Below are positions 4,901 to 28,808 of a DNA stretch of 45,751 nucleotides, piece after piece. The translations under genes and the position numbers were made by a program. How positions within the stretch are numbered: position 1 is the first letter of the stretch; every line of letters begins with the position of its first letter. The notes under the pieces were generated by a model. It saw nothing but the letters and a program-made list of their open reading frames with translations. It searched no databases and was not told the DNA's origin. The stretch spans positions 1-45,751 of the IMG/VR virus record IMGVR_UViG_3300025316_000025. One strand, written 5' to 3'. The stretch is from a virus.

Positions 4901-6433
4901 ATGGCAACAAAATCAGAAGTAGCAAAGACGAAACCAAGACAGAATGGGAAGTTTGTTAAATATCAGGCTGGTGGTAATCTAAAGCAAGGATTAGGTGGTT
5001 TCCAATCTGCTGCTAATAGTTCTTTTATTGCAATGCCAGAAAACAATCCTCCTGTTCCACATAATCCTGCTATTACACCAATGGCTCCTGGTGTATTTCA
5101 TGTAAATACTTATCGTTCTATCGCCTCAACTCCTGGTGGAATCTATAGAAACCTTGATGAAGCCCTCAGAGCCTCACCAGAGACAGCCAAAGCAATGTTA
5201 AATGACATTACTATAACTGGCCCTCTATTCCAGCGTTGGATGACCCTTTGCTCTTACAATGACGGTGTGACACCAGAGGATGAGAACGATCAAAGAGCAT
5301 TAGATATTTGTGAAAAGATTAAACAAGACCTTGAATCCATTCCCAGGTGGCACGAATTTAAGAGAAATCTAATGTGGGCAGCTTGGTATGGTAAAACTAC
5401 CAATGTCATTGATTGGGATTTTGAGTGGAATAAAGGACAAAGAAAATTAAAAGCCCGTAAATGGTTTAATATTATTGGTGATAAACTTGTTTTTAGAAAC
5501 AATGGTAGAATGGGCTATTTAGTACACATGCCGACTGGATTCAGGGATGTAGTTTATTCTGATCGTGGTATGGCTGAGTTATTTATGCCAGAAGATCAAG
5601 ATTCTATCGTTCATCACAAATATTTTATTACTGATACAAGTTGGGATGAGTCAATGTTGGCGATTGGTATGGAAGGTTTTGGATACAGACATTACCTCTA
5701 CTGGATTTATTGGCTCAAAATGCAACTCCTTGAGTGGGCATTAAATGCGTTCCAAATCTTCGGTGCTGGCGGTATTCGTGTAGGTTACTTTGAGCAATCT
5801 AATCCAGCGTCCGAACAAGCCGTAGCAACTGCTTTGGCTAATGCTAATAACACTAATATTATTCTATTCCCAAGACCTATTGGTGATCCTGGTGAGAATC
5901 AGGGTGCGGGATTAGAAATTATAAGTCCTAATGGTATTGATTTAAGTCACTTCAAGAACTTTATTGATGATTATTTTGGCAAACAAGTAGAGAAGATGTT
6001 GCTCGGTTGGGATTTTGATACTGAGAGAAACGACTACTATCGCTTACAGCAATATGACGCTACGGGATTAAGTGAAACAATTACTAATGATTTGGTAAAT
6101 GTAATCATTAAATACAATTATCCAGAAGCTATGGATATGGGCATTAAATACAACATTTCGGTGCCGATTCCTGATACTCAAAAGTATTTGGAAGGCGTAC
6201 AGAGAATGTATGAGGTTGGATTGCCTTTGGCGGAATCTGAAATTTATTCTTCTATGGGATTTACTAAGCCTGGGAAGAACAAGAAGGCACTTATTAAACC
6301 AGCACCTACGCCTGGAATGGGAATGCCTGGGGAAGAAATGAATGGCCCAATGTCACAAAACAACGATGGAAACGACCAGACTATTCGCAAGCCTAAAGTG
6401 GGCATTGGGAATTTAGGTCAAAATTTATCATAA
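4901..6433 (+). CDS. Portal protein (DUF935/Mu gp29-like)
   Basis: The 510-residue protein directly follows the terminase, where a portal is expected. A low-complexity N-terminus precedes an alpha/beta core. The segment LLGWDFDTERNDYYRLQQYD and the following helices resemble the C-terminal stem and crown region of DUF935-type portals. It would form the dodecameric channel at one capsid vertex through which DNA enters and to which the tail attaches. The C-terminal 40 residues are rich in Pro, Gly, Met and Asn and likely flexible. The assignment rests on order, size and weak motif resemblance. Confidence 0.8.
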   Translation: MATKSEVAKTKPRQNGKFVKYQAGGNLKQGLGGFQSAANSSFIAMPENNPPVPHNPAITPMAPGVFHVNTYRSIASTPGGIYRNLDEALRASPETAKAMLNDITITGPLFQRWMTLCSYNDGVTPEDENDQRALDICEKIKQDLESIPRWHEFKRNLMWAAWYGKTTNVIDWDFEWNKGQRKLKARKWFNIIGDKLVFRNNGRMGYLVHMPTGFRDVVYSDRGMAELFMPEDQDSIVHHKYFITDTSWDESMLAIGMEGFGYRHYLYWIYWLKMQLLEWALNAFQIFGAGGIRVGYFEQSNPASEQAVATALANANNTNIILFPRPIGDPGENQGAGLEIISPNGIDLSHFKNFIDDYFGKQVEKMLLGWDFDTERNDYYRLQQYDATGLSETITNDLVNVIIKYNYPEAMDMGIKYNISVPIPDTQKYLEGVQRMYEVGLPLAESEIYSSMGFTKPGKNKKALIKPAPTPGMGMPGEEMNGPMSQNNDGNDQTIRKPKVGIGNLGQNLS

Positions 6434-8183: not shown

Positions 8184-9433
8184 TAATTAAACAAAAGAAA
8201 GTATATATGGTGAATCCCGACTGTGATATTTTACGGTTACAGGAGATTGCCAGAGTTAATAATGCCCGTTTAGCGGCAGGAGAAGAAACTACGCTTACGC
8301 TTGGACATACAAGTGACGCTGATCCCGAATTGATTACTATTCCAGTGGGTCACGCCGAAAACTTTATGTGCATGGGTGATTCTTTATATTGTGATTTGGT
8401 AATTGATGATGAGTGGGCAAATCAAATTACCAAGTATAATAAGGTCAGTTGTGAGTTGTGGGCTGATAATGTAATCACACCAATCGCCCTTTTAGCCAAG
8501 AATAGACCAGCCTTGGAGGTTGGTTTAATTAAGTATGATATGCCTAATCGTGGCGATTTAGAGCATAAACCCTATATTACAGAAGAAGAACAAATTGAGG
8601 TAGAAAATATGTCTCCACAAGAAATCCAGCAATTATTTATAGAAACCATGAATCACAGTGAAGTATTCGGTAAATTCACTGATTTAATGGAAAATATTAT
8701 TCCAAAACTCCAAGAAACTGTTAAGCACATGGAGGATACACTTGCACCATTACTCGCAGAAGAAGTTGAAGAACATCCCGATTTGGCTGGACAACTTGAA
8801 GGTGAGGAAGAAGCTGTTGGTGAAGTTCCAGCGGAAACAGCCGAAGAAGCACCTGAAAAGGTTGAGGGAGAGGGTGACGGAAAAGACCCCGCAGAAGAAA
8901 ATGCGTTAGTAGAAGAGGAAAAAGAGCATCCTGAATTGCCTGAACAAACTGTGGAAAAAATTGTGGAAGATCACGAAAAAGAAGGCAAAGTGGAAGATAA
9001 ACCAAAAGAAGAGGTAGAAAAGAACGATGCTATGGCTTCTGCTAATGACGGTTATATTGCTGGTCTTGAGAATGAAAAGAAGAAAGTAAAGAAATATCAA
9101 ATGGATTTGATTAAAGCCACAGAAGAGAAGAATGAATTGGTTAAGAAATATCAATTAGAACTACGCAAGAACGAATTAAATGATTTGAGCAAGACTTATT
9201 TCTTTGATCCGAAAGACGAAGTGGAAATTGTAACTAATATGGACGACGAACAATGGGAAATGCACAAAAAGATAATTAAAACTAAATATCAAAAAGCACC
9301 TGTTGGACGAGTTGTTAGTGTTGCGGCTGATGTAGAAGATCGTAATGTTAAGTCGCCAGATAAAGTCCAGAGAGCTATTAAAGTAGCTTTAGACAAGGGA
9401 ATTAGCTTTAAGGAAGCACTAGACGCTGTTTAA
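8180..9433 (+). CDS. Prohead protease/scaffold fusion (Mu gpI-like)
   Basis: The 417-residue protein has two parts. Residues 1-140 contain the pattern LTLGHTSD, then IPVGHAENFMCMGDSLYCDLVIDD, KVSCELW and related strands, like the N-terminal protease-like domain of Mu gpI-type scaffolds. After about residue 144 comes a highly acidic Glu-rich stretch and then a Lys/Glu coiled coil ending in a basic, compact C-terminus, as in scaffolding proteins that bind the capsid. It would nucleate procapsid assembly and be degraded before packaging. A second product from an internal start (8609) is likely. Confidence 0.72.
   Translation: MIIKQKKVYMVNPDCDILRLQEIARVNNARLAAGEETTLTLGHTSDADPELITIPVGHAENFMCMGDSLYCDLVIDDEWANQITKYNKVSCELWADNVITPIALLAKNRPALEVGLIKYDMPNRGDLEHKPYITEEEQIEVENMSPQEIQQLFIETMNHSEVFGKFTDLMENIIPKLQETVKHMEDTLAPLLAEEVEEHPDLAGQLEGEEEAVGEVPAETAEEAPEKVEGEGDGKDPAEENALVEEEKEHPELPEQTVEKIVEDHEKEGKVEDKPKEEVEKNDAMASANDGYIAGLENEKKKVKKYQMDLIKATEEKNELVKKYQLELRKNELNDLSKTYFFDPKDEVEIVTNMDDEQWEMHKKIIKTKYQKAPVGRVVSVAADVEDRNVKSPDKVQRAIKVALDKGISFKEALDAV
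8609..9433 (+). CDS. Nested in-frame scaffold protein (internal start)
   Basis: ATG 8609 is in frame with the protease/scaffold gene (its residue 144) and has GAGG at 8597-8600, a well-spaced ribosome-binding site. The octamer CTATATTA lies 30 bases upstream (8572-8579). The start is at the boundary between the folded protease-like part and the acidic scaffold part, giving a 274-residue stand-alone scaffold. Lambda C/Nu3 and related protease-scaffold genes are known to use this arrangement. Usage here is inferred. Confidence 0.5.
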   Translation: MSPQEIQQLFIETMNHSEVFGKFTDLMENIIPKLQETVKHMEDTLAPLLAEEVEEHPDLAGQLEGEEEAVGEVPAETAEEAPEKVEGEGDGKDPAEENALVEEEKEHPELPEQTVEKIVEDHEKEGKVEDKPKEEVEKNDAMASANDGYIAGLENEKKKVKKYQMDLIKATEEKNELVKKYQLELRKNELNDLSKTYFFDPKDEVEIVTNMDDEQWEMHKKIIKTKYQKAPVGRVVSVAADVEDRNVKSPDKVQRAIKVALDKGISFKEALDAV

Positions 9434-23845: not shown

Positions 23846-23862
23846 AGCACAACCATTGTGCT
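23846..23862. promoter_or_regulatory. Palindromic operator candidate
   Basis: AGCACAA-CCA-TTGTGCT is a perfect 7-3-7 inverted repeat that covers the expected transcription start region of the promoter at 23872-23900. A half copy (AGCACAA) lies at the same distance downstream of the related promoter at 25255-25283. A repressor, for example one of the ribbon-helix-helix proteins encoded here, could bind. Confidence 0.5.
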
Positions 23863-23871
23863 TCTACATAT

Positions 23872-23900
23872 ATTATAGCATGATTACACTGTAATGTCAA
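23872..23900 (-). promoter_or_regulatory. Consensus sigma70-type promoter (leftward)
   Basis: On the minus strand -35 TTGACA (23900-23895) is separated by exactly 17 bases from -10 TATAAT (23877-23872). Both hexamers are perfect. It reads into the gene at 23819 and thus can serve the last part of the leftward block independently of phage factors. Confidence 0.92.
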
Positions 23901-25220: not shown

Positions 25221-25254
25221 TTCTTTCTCCTATATTGCTTTGTGCTTCTACTAT

Positions 25255-25283
25255 ATTATACGCCGACTTACCCTGTATGTCTA
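25255..25283 (-). promoter_or_regulatory. Near-consensus sigma70-type promoter (leftward)
   Basis: On the minus strand -35 TAGACA (25283-25278), a 17-base spacer and -10 TATAAT (25260-25255). It reads into the acetyltransferase gene. The bases after the -10 (GTAGAAGCACAA) match those after the promoter at 23872-23900, suggesting duplicated control regions. Confidence 0.88.
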
Positions 25284-25443: not shown

Positions 25444-26643
25444 TTAAATTAGAGCCTCTATCTTTAATGCTGGTTTGACTTCCAGGCAGTTGAATTGCCA
25501 CCGCATAGTATGTTCTACAAAAGCCAAGTTCTCAGGCTCACAAATAATACTGTCGTGAATGGTTGCCAGGAACATATCAGGATGTTGTTCTTTTAATGAC
25601 TGGCAGACCTTATTAAACATGAAGCTGGATTCTTCTCTTTGCATATTATGAGCTAATTTCTCATAACCAGACTTTCTAACCTCCAATGTATAAGCCATTA
25701 TGTCTGGATATAATTCATTCATAGCTTCTATTATTTGTTTCATTTCAGGAGATTTCCTTTTCTCTGGATCACAGTAAAATGAAGCAAGAACCTTATGTTT
25801 AACTTCTTCTCTTGTCTTACCTATTAAATCAGCAATTCTCTGGTAAATCTGTCCTGATTCACAGTCTTTTTGATACTCACTAATTTGTCTATCATCAAGG
25901 TATATAACATCACACATAATGAAGGTGGATGGGTCTTGATTGTACTTGAATTGATTGTTGTAAATAATAGAAAGAAATAGAGGCTGAGAATTACTTATAT
26001 CTACTCCTGATAAGTGTTTATTCTTTACTTTAATAAACTTTCTACAATCAGTAGGAAGATTAGTAAGATTAGTATGTATTCTACCGTAATCATCCACATG
26101 AAAGAACCATTGTTTATTTGATATAGCAATACACTGATTGGCAAAAATGTCATAATGTTCATCTCCATCTAAATATTCTAATGCAGCTTCTAAATCAATT
26201 TCTATTTTAAGTAAATTATTATAAAGCCATTGTTGTAGTTCTGTTCGTTCTTGTTCCAGGTGCTTAAACCATTTATCCAAAGACTTCAAAAGGAATTTAC
26301 TGATAATTGGAATTGATCTAAATTTAACTCCCTCAAATATCTTACCTATCTTATAACCTTTGGCTTTTACTTTTGGGATATAGAAGTCGTCACAAATAAT
26401 CATTTTCGCCTTGAGCATTTCGTTCAAGAGTAGGCGGGCTTTTTTGTGACAATGAAGAATTATTTGTAAATATTGGAGTTTAAGGTGCGTCCAAGAATTT
26501 TCGGATTTACGCTGGTCGTGGGTAAATCTCATTAACCGAGTGAAGTAAATATGGGAAAGTATGAACCTACAGTCGTCAGCGTACTTGTGACACCATTTCG
26601 GTAAAACTTTCACATCAAATGTTTCTGGAACAAATATATTCAT
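25444..26643 (-). CDS. Divergent single-subunit nucleic acid polymerase-like protein
   Basis: The 399-residue protein is read from ATG 26643. Palm-type motifs of the family A DNA polymerase/T7 RNA polymerase superfamily appear in order: motif A VDISNSQPLF with D215; a motif B-like helix REEVKHKVLASFYC (residues 278-291, K282/K284, Y290); motif C TIHDSI with H363-D364. Motifs A and C (DxSxSQ, IHDS) look closer to T7 RNA polymerase than to Pol I. No exonuclease domain is seen, and the protein is less than half the size of T7 RNA polymerase. It may be the phage replicase or a minimal RNA polymerase; no other polymerase, primase or helicase was found. Translation starts right after an unusual leader RNA. 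Confidence 0.6.
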   Translation of the reverse strand: MNIFVPETFDVKVLPKWCHKYADDCRFILSHIYFTRLMRFTHDQRKSENSWTHLKLQYLQIILHCHKKARLLLNEMLKAKMIICDDFYIPKVKAKGYKIGKIFEGVKFRSIPIISKFLLKSLDKWFKHLEQERTELQQWLYNNLLKIEIDLEAALEYLDGDEHYDIFANQCIAISNKQWFFHVDDYGRIHTNLTNLPTDCRKFIKVKNKHLSGVDISNSQPLFLSIIYNNQFKYNQDPSTFIMCDVIYLDDRQISEYQKDCESGQIYQRIADLIGKTREEVKHKVLASFYCDPEKRKSPEMKQIIEAMNELYPDIMAYTLEVRKSGYEKLAHNMQREESSFMFNKVCQSLKEQHPDMFLATIHDSIICEPENLAFVEHTMRWQFNCLEVKPALKIEALI

Positions 26644-26649
26644 AAAAAT

Positions 26650-26733
26650 AGCCCTCTTGGTGGAGTCACGCCTGGACAGCAATGATGAACCCAAGAGGGC
26701 TTTAATTTGATCTAATTGTTATGCTGTCCAGGC
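26650..26733 (-). ncRNA. Leader RNA with interleaved inverted repeats, polymerase-like gene
   Basis: Minus-strand order: B1 GCCTGGACAGCA (26733-26722), A1 AGCCCTCTTGG (26701-26691), B2 TGCTGTCCAGGC (26681-26670), A2 CCAAGAGGGCT (26660-26650), then ATTTTT-ATG. A1:A2 is a perfect 11-bp and B1:B2 a perfect 12-bp pairing, arranged A-B-A'-B' so that they form a pseudoknot or compete. A2 contains the ribosome-binding site (AAGAGGG) of the polymerase-like gene, so A1:A2 would hide it, and it also resembles a terminator stem. The expected transcript start (about 26736) lies just before B1, so the leader consists almost wholly of this structure. Confidence 0.75.
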
Positions 26734-26742
26734 ACTTCTCTT

Positions 26743-26771
26743 ATTCTAACATAGTATCTATGCAGCAACAA
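26743..26771 (-). promoter_or_regulatory. Candidate promoter for polymerase-like gene leader
   Basis: On the minus strand -35 TTGTTG (26771-26766), 17-base spacer, -10 TAGAAT (26748-26743). The predicted start falls at about 26736, a few bases before the first strand of the structured leader. Confidence 0.55.
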
Positions 26772-26779
26772 TAGAAAAT

Positions 26780-27388
26780 TTATGAAAAATTTTTCTTCTT
26801 GTAGTTTTTAGGAACTTTTCTGGTTTTTGGTGGATCATCAGGACTTCTACCTTGAATAATTTTTTGAGAAACCCTTTTGACTGATATTCCCAACTCAGCC
26901 GACCATTGTTTCATTGTTTTCCCAAAGTATAACTTACCAGTCTTAATACTTTTCTTTCTGGTTTTCTTGCCAGCTAAAATATCTTCATCTGTCCATTCTT
27001 TAAGTCTTTGGAAAAATTGTTTTTTTGTAATTCCAAGAATATTAGTCCATTCTTGATACGAATGGGAAATATTTTTTATCAAATACTGCTTTTCTTGTTT
27101 GATTGTATTATTTTGATTAACTTTTCGGGTCACGAAGCGGCAATTTTCAGGACAATAATTTCCATTATTATCAATACGATCAATTTCTAATCCTTTTTTA
27201 TAAATAGGCAATGCCCAATTATAAAATGCTAAAAAATCGGTTTTCCACACATCCTCTACGATAATTCCTCTGCCGCCGTAACGATGGTAATTCGGGAATG
27301 TCTCGTCATAACACCGCTGCTTCATAGCGTGCCAAATATGATATAGAGGATGTGTGGATAAACCATGCTTAAATAGAGGGTGATTCAT
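26780..27388 (-). CDS. HNH endonuclease with extra DNA-binding repeats
   Basis: The 202-residue protein starts at ATG 27388 (MNHPLFKHGLSTHPLYHIWH) behind AGGTGGA. The N-terminal part has the phage HNH pattern WHAMKQRC, YGGRGI, LEIDRIDNNGNYCPENCRFV. The C-terminal half has two helix-turn-helix-like repeats (YQEWTNILGITKKQFFQRL; MKQWSAELGISVKRVSQKI), typical of homing-type nucleases. It overlaps the upstream gene by 20 bases. It may be a free-standing homing endonuclease rather than a core replication gene. Confidence 0.75.
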   Translation of the reverse strand: MNHPLFKHGLSTHPLYHIWHAMKQRCYDETFPNYHRYGGRGIIVEDVWKTDFLAFYNWALPIYKKGLEIDRIDNNGNYCPENCRFVTRKVNQNNTIKQEKQYLIKNISHSYQEWTNILGITKKQFFQRLKEWTDEDILAGKKTRKKSIKTGKLYFGKTMKQWSAELGISVKRVSQKIIQGRSPDDPPKTRKVPKNYKKKNFS

Positions 27389-27566
27389 ACCATCCACCTG
27401 TTCCGAACCAAAATTCGTCACAAAACCGATCATATTGTTCGTTTATTTCTTGTAGTTCCCATTCCAATTGATCTTCTGGAATAAGATCATATAAATAATC
27501 AAAATATTCGGCTGTCTCAAAACCATATAGATTCTCAGCTTGAGCTAATTCGTATTCATTAAACAT
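27369..27566 (-). CDS. Small acidic protein
   Basis: The 65-residue protein starts at ATG 27566 (MFNEYELAQAENLYGFETAE), rich in Glu, Asp, Tyr and Phe, and could mimic DNA or bind a host regulator. It overlaps the end of the upstream gene by eight bases, with GAGG upstream, and the next gene by 20 bases. No family is recognised. Confidence 0.55.
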   Translation of the reverse strand: MFNEYELAQAENLYGFETAEYFDYLYDLIPEDQLEWELQEINEQYDRFCDEFWFGTGGWYESPSI

Positions 27567-28149
27567 TAGAAGCCTCACATTTTCCTAATTCTTTCAAGAA
27601 GTCAGCTTCATCGTCAGCGGTAGGTGAGGCAACGCAGGTTTTAATATCATTCAAAAAATCAACATCGCTCTCAAGAGGCTTATATTTTTTCAACCACTCT
27701 TCTTTGCCTTTGGCATACCATTCACAATATTCTTTTTCGGTCAAAAAGTTGCCAGGATTTATCTCATTCAGTAAATCTTCTAAAATAGAATCTTCTAATT
27801 GGTTTTCGGGTTTTAGAAGCTGTAGTCTTTCCCAACATTTGATTATGGCTTGTTTATCGCCACTATCTTTTACCACTTCAACTATATCAGCAAGAAAACT
27901 CCAAGAAACCTTCACATCCTCCATGAATGGCGGGTTATTAAAGTATTTCCAGGCGTTAATCAGTGTGGACATAGATTCTTCAATAACTTGAATTTGGGCA
28001 TGGATATGCCACCAAGACACATCACACTGTCCAGGTTCGGGCTTGTAATCAACTGGAAATTTAGCCAATTCCAACTTTTCTGCTTTTAACATTTCTCCAA
28101 GTTCTTTGATTTCTGCTTCTAAACCCACACACATTTCTTTTTTATTCAT
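27559..28149 (-). CDS. Hypothetical early protein behind attenuator-like leader
   Basis: The 196-residue acidic, helical protein begins MNKKEMCVGLEAEIKELGEM. It has a predicted coiled coil in the first 35 residues and a Trp-rich middle (CDVSWWHIHAQIQVIEESM). RBS GAGGAAG precedes ATG 28149, directly after the terminator arm of the leader at 28172-28237, so expression likely depends on that element. Function unknown. Confidence 0.6.
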   Translation of the reverse strand: MNKKEMCVGLEAEIKELGEMLKAEKLELAKFPVDYKPEPGQCDVSWWHIHAQIQVIEESMSTLINAWKYFNNPPFMEDVKVSWSFLADIVEVVKDSGDKQAIIKCWERLQLLKPENQLEDSILEDLLNEINPGNFLTEKEYCEWYAKGKEEWLKKYKPLESDVDFLNDIKTCVASPTADDEADFLKELGKCEASNV

Positions 28150-28171
28150 AATTTCTTCCTCAAAAAAAGAA

Positions 28172-28237
28172 AAGCCCGCAATATCCTCCCCAGGAAATGC
28201 GGGCTTCTCAAAATTTTATGTTAGTCCTGGGGAGGAT
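28172..28237 (-). ncRNA. Leader RNA with interleaved inverted repeats and terminator
   Basis: Minus-strand order: B1 ATCCTCCCCAGGA (28237-28225), A1 AAGCCCGCA (28206-28198), B2 TCCTGGGGAGGAT (28195-28183), A2 TGCGGGCTT (28180-28172), then TTCTTTTTTT. A1:A2 is a 9-bp terminator-type hairpin with a T-rich tail; B1:B2 is a perfect 13-bp pairing between upstream RNA and the terminator loop. Only two bases separate A1 from B2 and B2 from A2, so both stems can hardly form together: a terminator/antiterminator switch is implied. The topology is the same as at 26650-26733, but the sequences differ. Confidence 0.75.
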
Positions 28238-28267
28238 TCTTTAATTGTATCATATCTACATATAGAA

Positions 28268-28774
28268 TCAATAGGGAAATTCTGCCAGAATCTTTTTATA
28301 TGCAAGTTCTGTGATCTGCCGCACCCTCTCCCGACTGATGGATAGTTCGGTGCCGATTTCTTCTAATGTACGCCCATCTGCCCTCTGACGCAATATATAT
28401 TGAGAACGATTATCCAGAACCGCAAGAAATTTATCGGCATCTTCATTAGCGGCAAATTTATCCAAAATTCGCTCGTCATAGGCTAATAAATCTTCATTTA
28501 TATTCCCATCCTCATAATGGATGCCCGCCCGTTCTTTCTTCCTGCGGCTAAATTCCTTTTTTCTCCAACGCCAACAAGTTTTATTTATTGTGGCGTAAAG
28601 GTAGGTAATAAATTTAATATCTTTGTCGGGATCAAATAATTCAGCCGCCCGCATAAACTTCATACAGCACTCTTGGTACAGATCGGTGTCCGTAACGGGT
28701 CTTTCATCCGTATATTTCCCGACAATCTTACAAATTAGCGGAATCCAGTTCTCTATGATGTGTTCTTTCTCCAT
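28268..28774 (-). CDS. Phage sigma70-family factor
   Basis: The 168-residue protein starts at ATG 28774 behind GGGAG. Region 2 spans about residues 30-80 (DLYQECCMKFMRAAELFDPD, FITYLYATINKTCWRWRKKE) and region 4 about 115-165 with the helix-turn-helix TLEEIGTELSISRERVRQI. Regions 1 and 3 are missing, as in ECF-type and phage sigma factors. It heads the leftward block and is a strong candidate to redirect host RNA polymerase to phage promoters such as the CTATATTA elements. Its own promoter region contains CTATATAA, hinting at autoregulation. Confidence 0.85.
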   Translation of the reverse strand: MEKEHIIENWIPLICKIVGKYTDERPVTDTDLYQECCMKFMRAAELFDPDKDIKFITYLYATINKTCWRWRKKEFSRRKKERAGIHYEDGNINEDLLAYDERILDKFAANEDADKFLAVLDNRSQYILRQRADGRTLEEIGTELSISRERVRQITELAYKKILAEFPY

Positions 28775-28799
28775 TATTACTCCCAACTTATATAGTAAT

Positions 28800-28808
28800 A
28801 TCATACCA
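28800..28808 (-). promoter_or_regulatory. Extended -10 promoter for sigma gene
   Basis: On the minus strand TGGTATGAT gives an extended -10 (TG-n-TATGAT) with no good -35, about 26 bases before ATG 28774. The related CTATATAA follows directly. It fits early leftward transcription by the host enzyme. Confidence 0.5.

Follow-up and report, generated by a model that had tools for sequence, protein, structure and literature searches.

The window analysed here is the complete 45,751-nucleotide stretch of IMG/VR virus record IMGVR_UViG_3300025316_000025. On its minus strand, a sigma-70 family gene is followed by a short leader (leader 1) and a gene for a 196-aa protein with no homologue found, and then by an HNH (homing-type) endonuclease gene, a second leader (leader 2) and a gene for a 399-aa polymerase-like protein. 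Each leader consists of four strands in the order B, A, B*, A*, where B is complementary to B*, A is complementary to A*, and B* lies in the loop of the A:A* hairpin (Table 1). In leader 1, B and A are separated by 18 nt, and the linkers on either side of B* are only 2 nt long. The HNH gene also contains a 15-bp perfect inverted repeat, with arms 85 nt apart. Elsewhere in the window, two strong sigma-70-type promoters on the minus strand share the start GTAGAAGCACAA right after the -10, and one of them is followed by a small 5' hairpin.

Table 1. Features of the two leaders and their surroundings (window coordinates).
Position	Strand	Feature	Sequence or motif	Remarks
28268..28804	-	sigma-70 family gene		upstream of leader 1
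28266..28271	-	-35-like hexamer of leader 1	TTGATT	overlaps the stop codon of the sigma gene; promoter scan, 9 of 12 matches with TG before the -10
28244..28252	-	extended -10 of leader 1	TGATACAAT	6 nt before B
28225..28237	-	leader 1 B strand	ATCCTCCCCAGGA	5' antiterminator strand, probable 5' end of the RNA; 13-bp perfect complement of B*
28198..28206	-	leader 1 A strand	AAGCCCGCA	5' arm of terminator stem, 9 bp; extends to 28209 with G-U
28183..28195	-	leader 1 B* strand	TCCTGGGGAGGAT	in the loop of A:A*
28172..28180	-	leader 1 A* strand	TGCGGGCTT	3' arm of terminator stem; extends to 28169 (12 pairs, 28169-28180/28198-28209)
28162..28171	-	leader 1 U tract	TTCTTTTTTT
28155..28161	-	ribosome-binding site	GAGGAAG	for ATG 28149
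27559..28149	-	gene behind leader 1		196 aa, no homologue found
27244..27258 / 27344..27358		perfect inverted repeat, 15 bp		inside the HNH endonuclease gene
26780..27433	-	HNH (homing-type) endonuclease gene		between leader 1's gene and leader 2
26766..26771	-	weak -35 of leader 2	TTGTTG
26743..26751	-	extended -10 of leader 2	TGTTAGAAT	7-9 nt before the pairing strand
26722..26733	-	leader 2 B strand	GCCTGGACAGCA	12 bp with B*; extends to 26735 with G-U
26691..26701	-	leader 2 A strand	AGCCCTCTTGG	11 bp with A*; written 5'-3' on the + strand, RNA reads CCAAGAGGGCT complement
26670..26681	-	leader 2 B* strand	TGCTGTCCAGGC	in the loop of A:A*
26650..26660	-	leader 2 A* strand	CCAAGAGGGCT	holds the likely ribosome-binding site AGAGGG (26657-26652), then ATTTTT and ATG 26643
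25444..26643	-	gene behind leader 2		399-aa polymerase-like protein; motifs YGRxHTN, DIxNSQP, HDSI
25283..25230 and 23900..23850	-	strong sigma-70-type promoters	GTAGAAGCACAA	shared start right after the -10

An earlier note, made from the sequence alone, had described the 13-bp and 9-bp perfect repeats of leader 1, the T-rich tract before the ribosome-binding site of the next gene, and a like design in the polymerase leader; we found these observations to be correct, including the positions of the repeats. The sequences of the two leaders are unrelated. Interleaved perfect pairs with both stems of 9 bp or more occurred 0.04 times per dinucleotide-shuffled window (maximum of 1 in 100 shuffles), in contrast to the two observed. 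When the T tract was included in the score, 0 of 200 shuffles of either 300-nt region reached the observed value, and no comparable T-tract-linked site was present elsewhere in the window.

We noted that each B strand begins 6-9 nt after an extended -10 promoter-like site. Such sites occur 16 times in the window, as often as chance predicts, so the point is their position rather than their number. If they are used, B is at or near the 5' end of the RNA and leader 1 need not depend on readthrough from the sigma gene. In leader 2 the likely ribosome-binding site lies inside A*, and A:A* would, thus, also block translation.

We next compared the stabilities of the alternative folds. The full leader 1 RNA folds as the terminator (-31.9 kcal/mol), with the B:B* form at -29.2 kcal/mol, whereas leader 2 prefers B:B* (-33.0 kcal/mol) over A:A* (-29.9 kcal/mol); in both leaders the two folds are, therefore, within about 3 kcal/mol of each other. 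In growing chains B:B* appears as soon as B* is out and before A* exists, being the only strong structure from about 55 to 70 nt in leader 1 and remaining the best throughout leader 2. Minimum-energy folding of growing chains is not a kinetic simulation, and the complete leader 1 RNA favours the terminator at equilibrium; the inferred default during transcription is nevertheless readthrough, with termination when B is unavailable. The predicted intrinsic terminator before the gene comprises a G+C-rich A:A* hairpin and a T tract in leader 1, while the T tract of leader 2 (ATTTTT) is weak, so that leader 2 may act on translation rather than termination.

No close relatives covering this region were found. 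The sigma, 196-aa and polymerase-like genes, used as single queries, gave no hit in viral contigs, nor did the leader sequence, and searches of phage and plasmid DNA were also negative; two relatives with 82% identity in the terminase are short contigs without the region. We therefore followed the polymerase-like protein, which has relatives of 25-30% identity in huge phages (LR756511 and others), in many IMG/VR contigs and in integrated elements, but matches no Pfam or NCBIfam family and has no PDB relative by sequence; it looks like a small family-A or single-subunit-type polymerase. A profile of this protein gave 117 loci, and a strict scan of about 1.5 Mb of these yielded one strong G+C-containing hit with a T tract. 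In this locus (L090, an integrated element on an Ignavibacteriales MAG contig), promoter-like TATCATAAT, B TGAGCGGACAC, A AACCCTTGC, B* GTGTCCGCTCA, A* GCAAGGGTT and TTTT precede a Cys-rich gene, an HTH gene and the polymerase-like gene, beside the tmRNA gene. Apart from L090, the wider polymerase-like family (80 + 80 viral and 37 genome loci, overlapping sets) does not carry the leader, so this gene is not the marker for it. One further candidate, locus L168, has two copies at the ends of an inverted duplication of about 1 kb (1500-2466 and 5020-5986, 99% identical) that flanks a polymerase-like gene, and was set aside as chance-level.

A relative of the Cys-rich gene (63% identity) in another genome of the same order, G258, lies in an integrase-bearing element, whose leader keeps a similar A stem (AACCCTT/AAGGGTT) but has an entirely different matched pair, B GTCCCAAAC and B* GTTTGGGAC. 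Absence of the upstream B strand from relatives with the same terminator had been set beforehand as a test; while close relatives of this phage were lacking, in the related pair L090/L266 the A stem is similar and a different but still complementary B is present. In the L266 leader an extra strand upstream of B, TATGTTTGG, can pair with B itself (CCAAACATA), a possible anti-antiterminator. Searching with the Cys-rich gene gave only two elements, and a search with the shared A stem AACCCTT/AAGGGTTTTT gave mostly unrelated terminators. The first gene of the G258 operon, encoding 139 aa, proved to be the better marker. Its homologues in genomes G296 (75%), G152 (51%) and G264 (50%) all carry the layout: CTAAGACGGTT/AACCGTCTTAG with AAGCCTCTTTG/CAAAGAGGCTT; TACCAAGAGAC/GTCTCTTGGTA with GAAGCCGG/CCGGCTT; GCTGCTGG/CCAGCAGC with AGCCTTTTT/AGAGAGGCT. 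The layout was, thus, present in four of four family members of 50% identity or more, seed included, and shuffle tests gave 0 or 1 of 200 for each of the seven leaders tested, including the two of the window. A class-level profile search added loci L303, L305, L306, L310, L311, L314 and L317, and in total the layout recurs in at least 12 further leaders of other elements, the relatives being mostly MAG contigs.

The 139-aa family (L266 7851-8270, L294 2869-3288, L296 4191-4616 and relatives) marks a set of small integrase-bearing elements of Ignavibacteria and is the first gene after many of the leaders. It has no Pfam hit, and its predicted model (pLDDT 79) has no convincing structural match. 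In loci L280-L283, L284 and L287, a second hairpin lies between the terminator and the start codon, and is kept in more distant relatives that lack B-A-B*-A*. In genome G071 a 139-aa-family gene lies next to the polymerase-like gene, though no leader was detected there.

With the seed left out, 10 of 26 upstream regions of the 139-aa family carried B-A-B*-A* plus a T tract at a score of 42 or more, against 11 of 746 control windows (Fisher test, P = 8e-11); a second control set, from polymerase-like loci, gave 5 of 1528 at this threshold. Sixteen of the 27 family upstream regions showed no strong element in the last 300 nt, some perhaps because the gene is internal to an operon. All eight control windows scoring 44 or more are on the coding strand and none on the opposite strand, as expected if some are leaders of neighbouring genes, and several of them (L282b, L291b, L309, L310b) lie directly before other genes with T tracts, so the control rate is probably inflated by real leaders. 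The B strands are no more alike than shuffled ones (best ungapped identity 0.45 and 0.45), whereas each B matches its own B* over 7-14 contiguous bases and foreign ones mostly over 3-4: complementarity is kept, sequence is not. As B and B* were found by searching for complementarity, this matching is partly by selection, which the controls address, although without the support of independent covariation. B does not always change; L306 and L309, in different genomes, are recognisably the same leader with the same B, and with an A-stem position that reads G-U in one and A-U in the other.

These results suggest that the leaders are bistable attenuators, a reading to which we assign a probability of about 0.62. 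In this view, transcription starts at the promoter-like site just upstream, and B pairs with B* before A* has been made; the B:B* duplex holds what would be the loop of the terminator and keeps the A:A* hairpin from closing, so that transcription passes into the gene. When B is occupied by something else, A:A* would form next to the U tract and transcription would end. Since B and B* differ completely between elements while staying complementary, the likeliest occupant of B is a cognate RNA, perhaps the terminated leader RNA itself, whose B* sits in a hairpin loop. Our analysis establishes the four strands, the T tract, the near-equal stability of the two folds, their order of formation in growing-chain minimum-energy folds, and the recurrence of the layout in other elements with unrelated but matched sequences. 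Promoter use, termination, switching with regulated readthrough, and the identity and trans action of any effector RNA are inferred from sequence alone.

The interpretation offered in the earlier note was, therefore, supported in part. A terminator/antiterminator-like bistable leader, one topology with unrelated sequences, and a shared leader class matched by no Rfam family were all supported. The proposed mutual exclusion of the stems holds sterically for leader 1, with its 2-nt linkers, but leader 2 (7-9 nt), where it is not strict, and several relatives have longer linkers that could allow a pseudoknot. Control of readthrough from the sigma gene, which the note had also proposed, is probably not the main role, because a promoter-like site lies between the sigma stop codon and B. 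The parallel with satellite phage P4 (see below) had not been named.

Alternatively, the switch may be read by something other than its own RNA, such as a phage or element protein, a small molecule, a translating ribosome or a host factor that binds B or the B:B* duplex and sets the terminator, in which case the sequence divergence would be neutral drift with compensation. The anatomy is the same as that of protein- or ligand-controlled attenuators, the common B of L306 and L309 speaks for this view, and a 10-codon ORF in leader 1 (ATG ATA CAA ... TAA; MIQLKNPPQD) would place a ribosome over B on readthrough RNA. However, a protein or ligand site would be expected to conserve some sequence, whereas B strands are unrelated even between elements whose proteins are 63-75% identical, and the leader 1 ORF, which we judged a weak candidate for a leader peptide, lacks a good ribosome-binding site, overlaps the -10 and has no equivalent in leader 2. 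We consider this explanation unlikely, though it is the strongest of the alternatives.

Less likely still is an H-type pseudoknot, in which B:B* and A:A* form together and the compact fold protects the 5' end or modulates translation rather than acting as an either/or switch. Linkers of 6-9 nt in leader 2, L090 and L281 could allow both helices together, but the 2-nt linkers beside the 13-bp stem of leader 1, and the 0-4 nt found on at least one side in L282, L305, L306 and L310, are too short to cross the other stem (a geometric inference), and the T tract directly after A* is a recurrent part. Ordinary terminators with an upstream complement that arose by chance, or as a DNA-level feature such as paired operators, are very unlikely. 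Terminators are common, B and B* are also inverted repeats in DNA, and their centres are 42 and 52 bp apart in leaders 1 and 2, close to whole helical turns; however, the shuffle and control rates and the confinement of the T-tract-linked pattern to the coding strand among control windows scoring 44 or more argue against this, and looping between operators was rejected because the B-B* spacing in relatives varies widely without a 10.5-bp period.

A further possibility, which we regard as tentative, is that the leaders form a hypervariable RNA self-recognition system, in which the terminated leader RNA binds B of each new cognate transcript and forces it to terminate too, so that an element silences its own replication genes and those of same-type newcomers. 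B and B* would then diversify as immunity or incompatibility types, independently of the P4 family and also in a phage. If the attenuator reading is right, this is a compact RNA switch recognised by topology rather than sequence, and so missed by sequence and covariance-model searches. It would extend RNA-based control of replication, known from P4-type satellites, to integrative elements of Ignavibacteria and to a sigma-encoding phage, and gives a rule (a terminator loop complementary to the RNA 5' end) that can be searched for everywhere and tested in a simple transcription assay.

Literature searches, limited to open-access papers, found the P4/IsrK parallel but no description of such leaders. 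Riboswitch and protein-controlled attenuators likewise have mutually exclusive folds and an intrinsic terminator before the ribosome-binding site, but here there is no conserved ligand-binding core and nearly every member has a different sequence; no riboswitch family of Rfam 15 matched at the gathering score, and a permissive scan gave only sub-threshold matches. Plasmid replication attenuators (pT181 repC, pIP501 repR) also have a leader with alternative terminator and antiterminator folds before a replication gene, with termination set by RNA pairing. In those systems an antisense RNA from the opposite strand is used and the antiterminator takes a terminator arm, whereas here the pairing strand takes the terminator loop.

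The closest known system is the immunity of satellite phage P4, itself an integrative element, where upstream seqA TTCACAGG (8651-8644) is complementary to CCTGTGAA (8463-8456) in the loop of the CI RNA hairpin (8502 to 8425), in the same four-strand order. CI RNA is reported to cause premature termination of P4 replication genes through RNA pairing (PMC4825925). Heteroimmune relatives such as phiR73 differ in these boxes. The Rfam models C4 (RF01695) and isrK (RF01394) both hit the P4 control (8420-8507 and 8615-8692, respectively) but gave no hit at the gathering score in the window or in the 12 relatives tested. P4 also has a third box, seqC; in the window alone, a list of 8-mers showed only short stretches of B elsewhere, about 10-11 bases at most and inside other genes. 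In P4 the two boxes are about 180 nt apart and the CI RNA is processed from the transcript, whereas here everything lies within about 70-130 nt and the loop-bearing hairpin is itself a predicted T-tract terminator. The leaders described here thus share the topology of P4 seqA/CI RNA and may work like it, but on the present evidence they are not members of that family.
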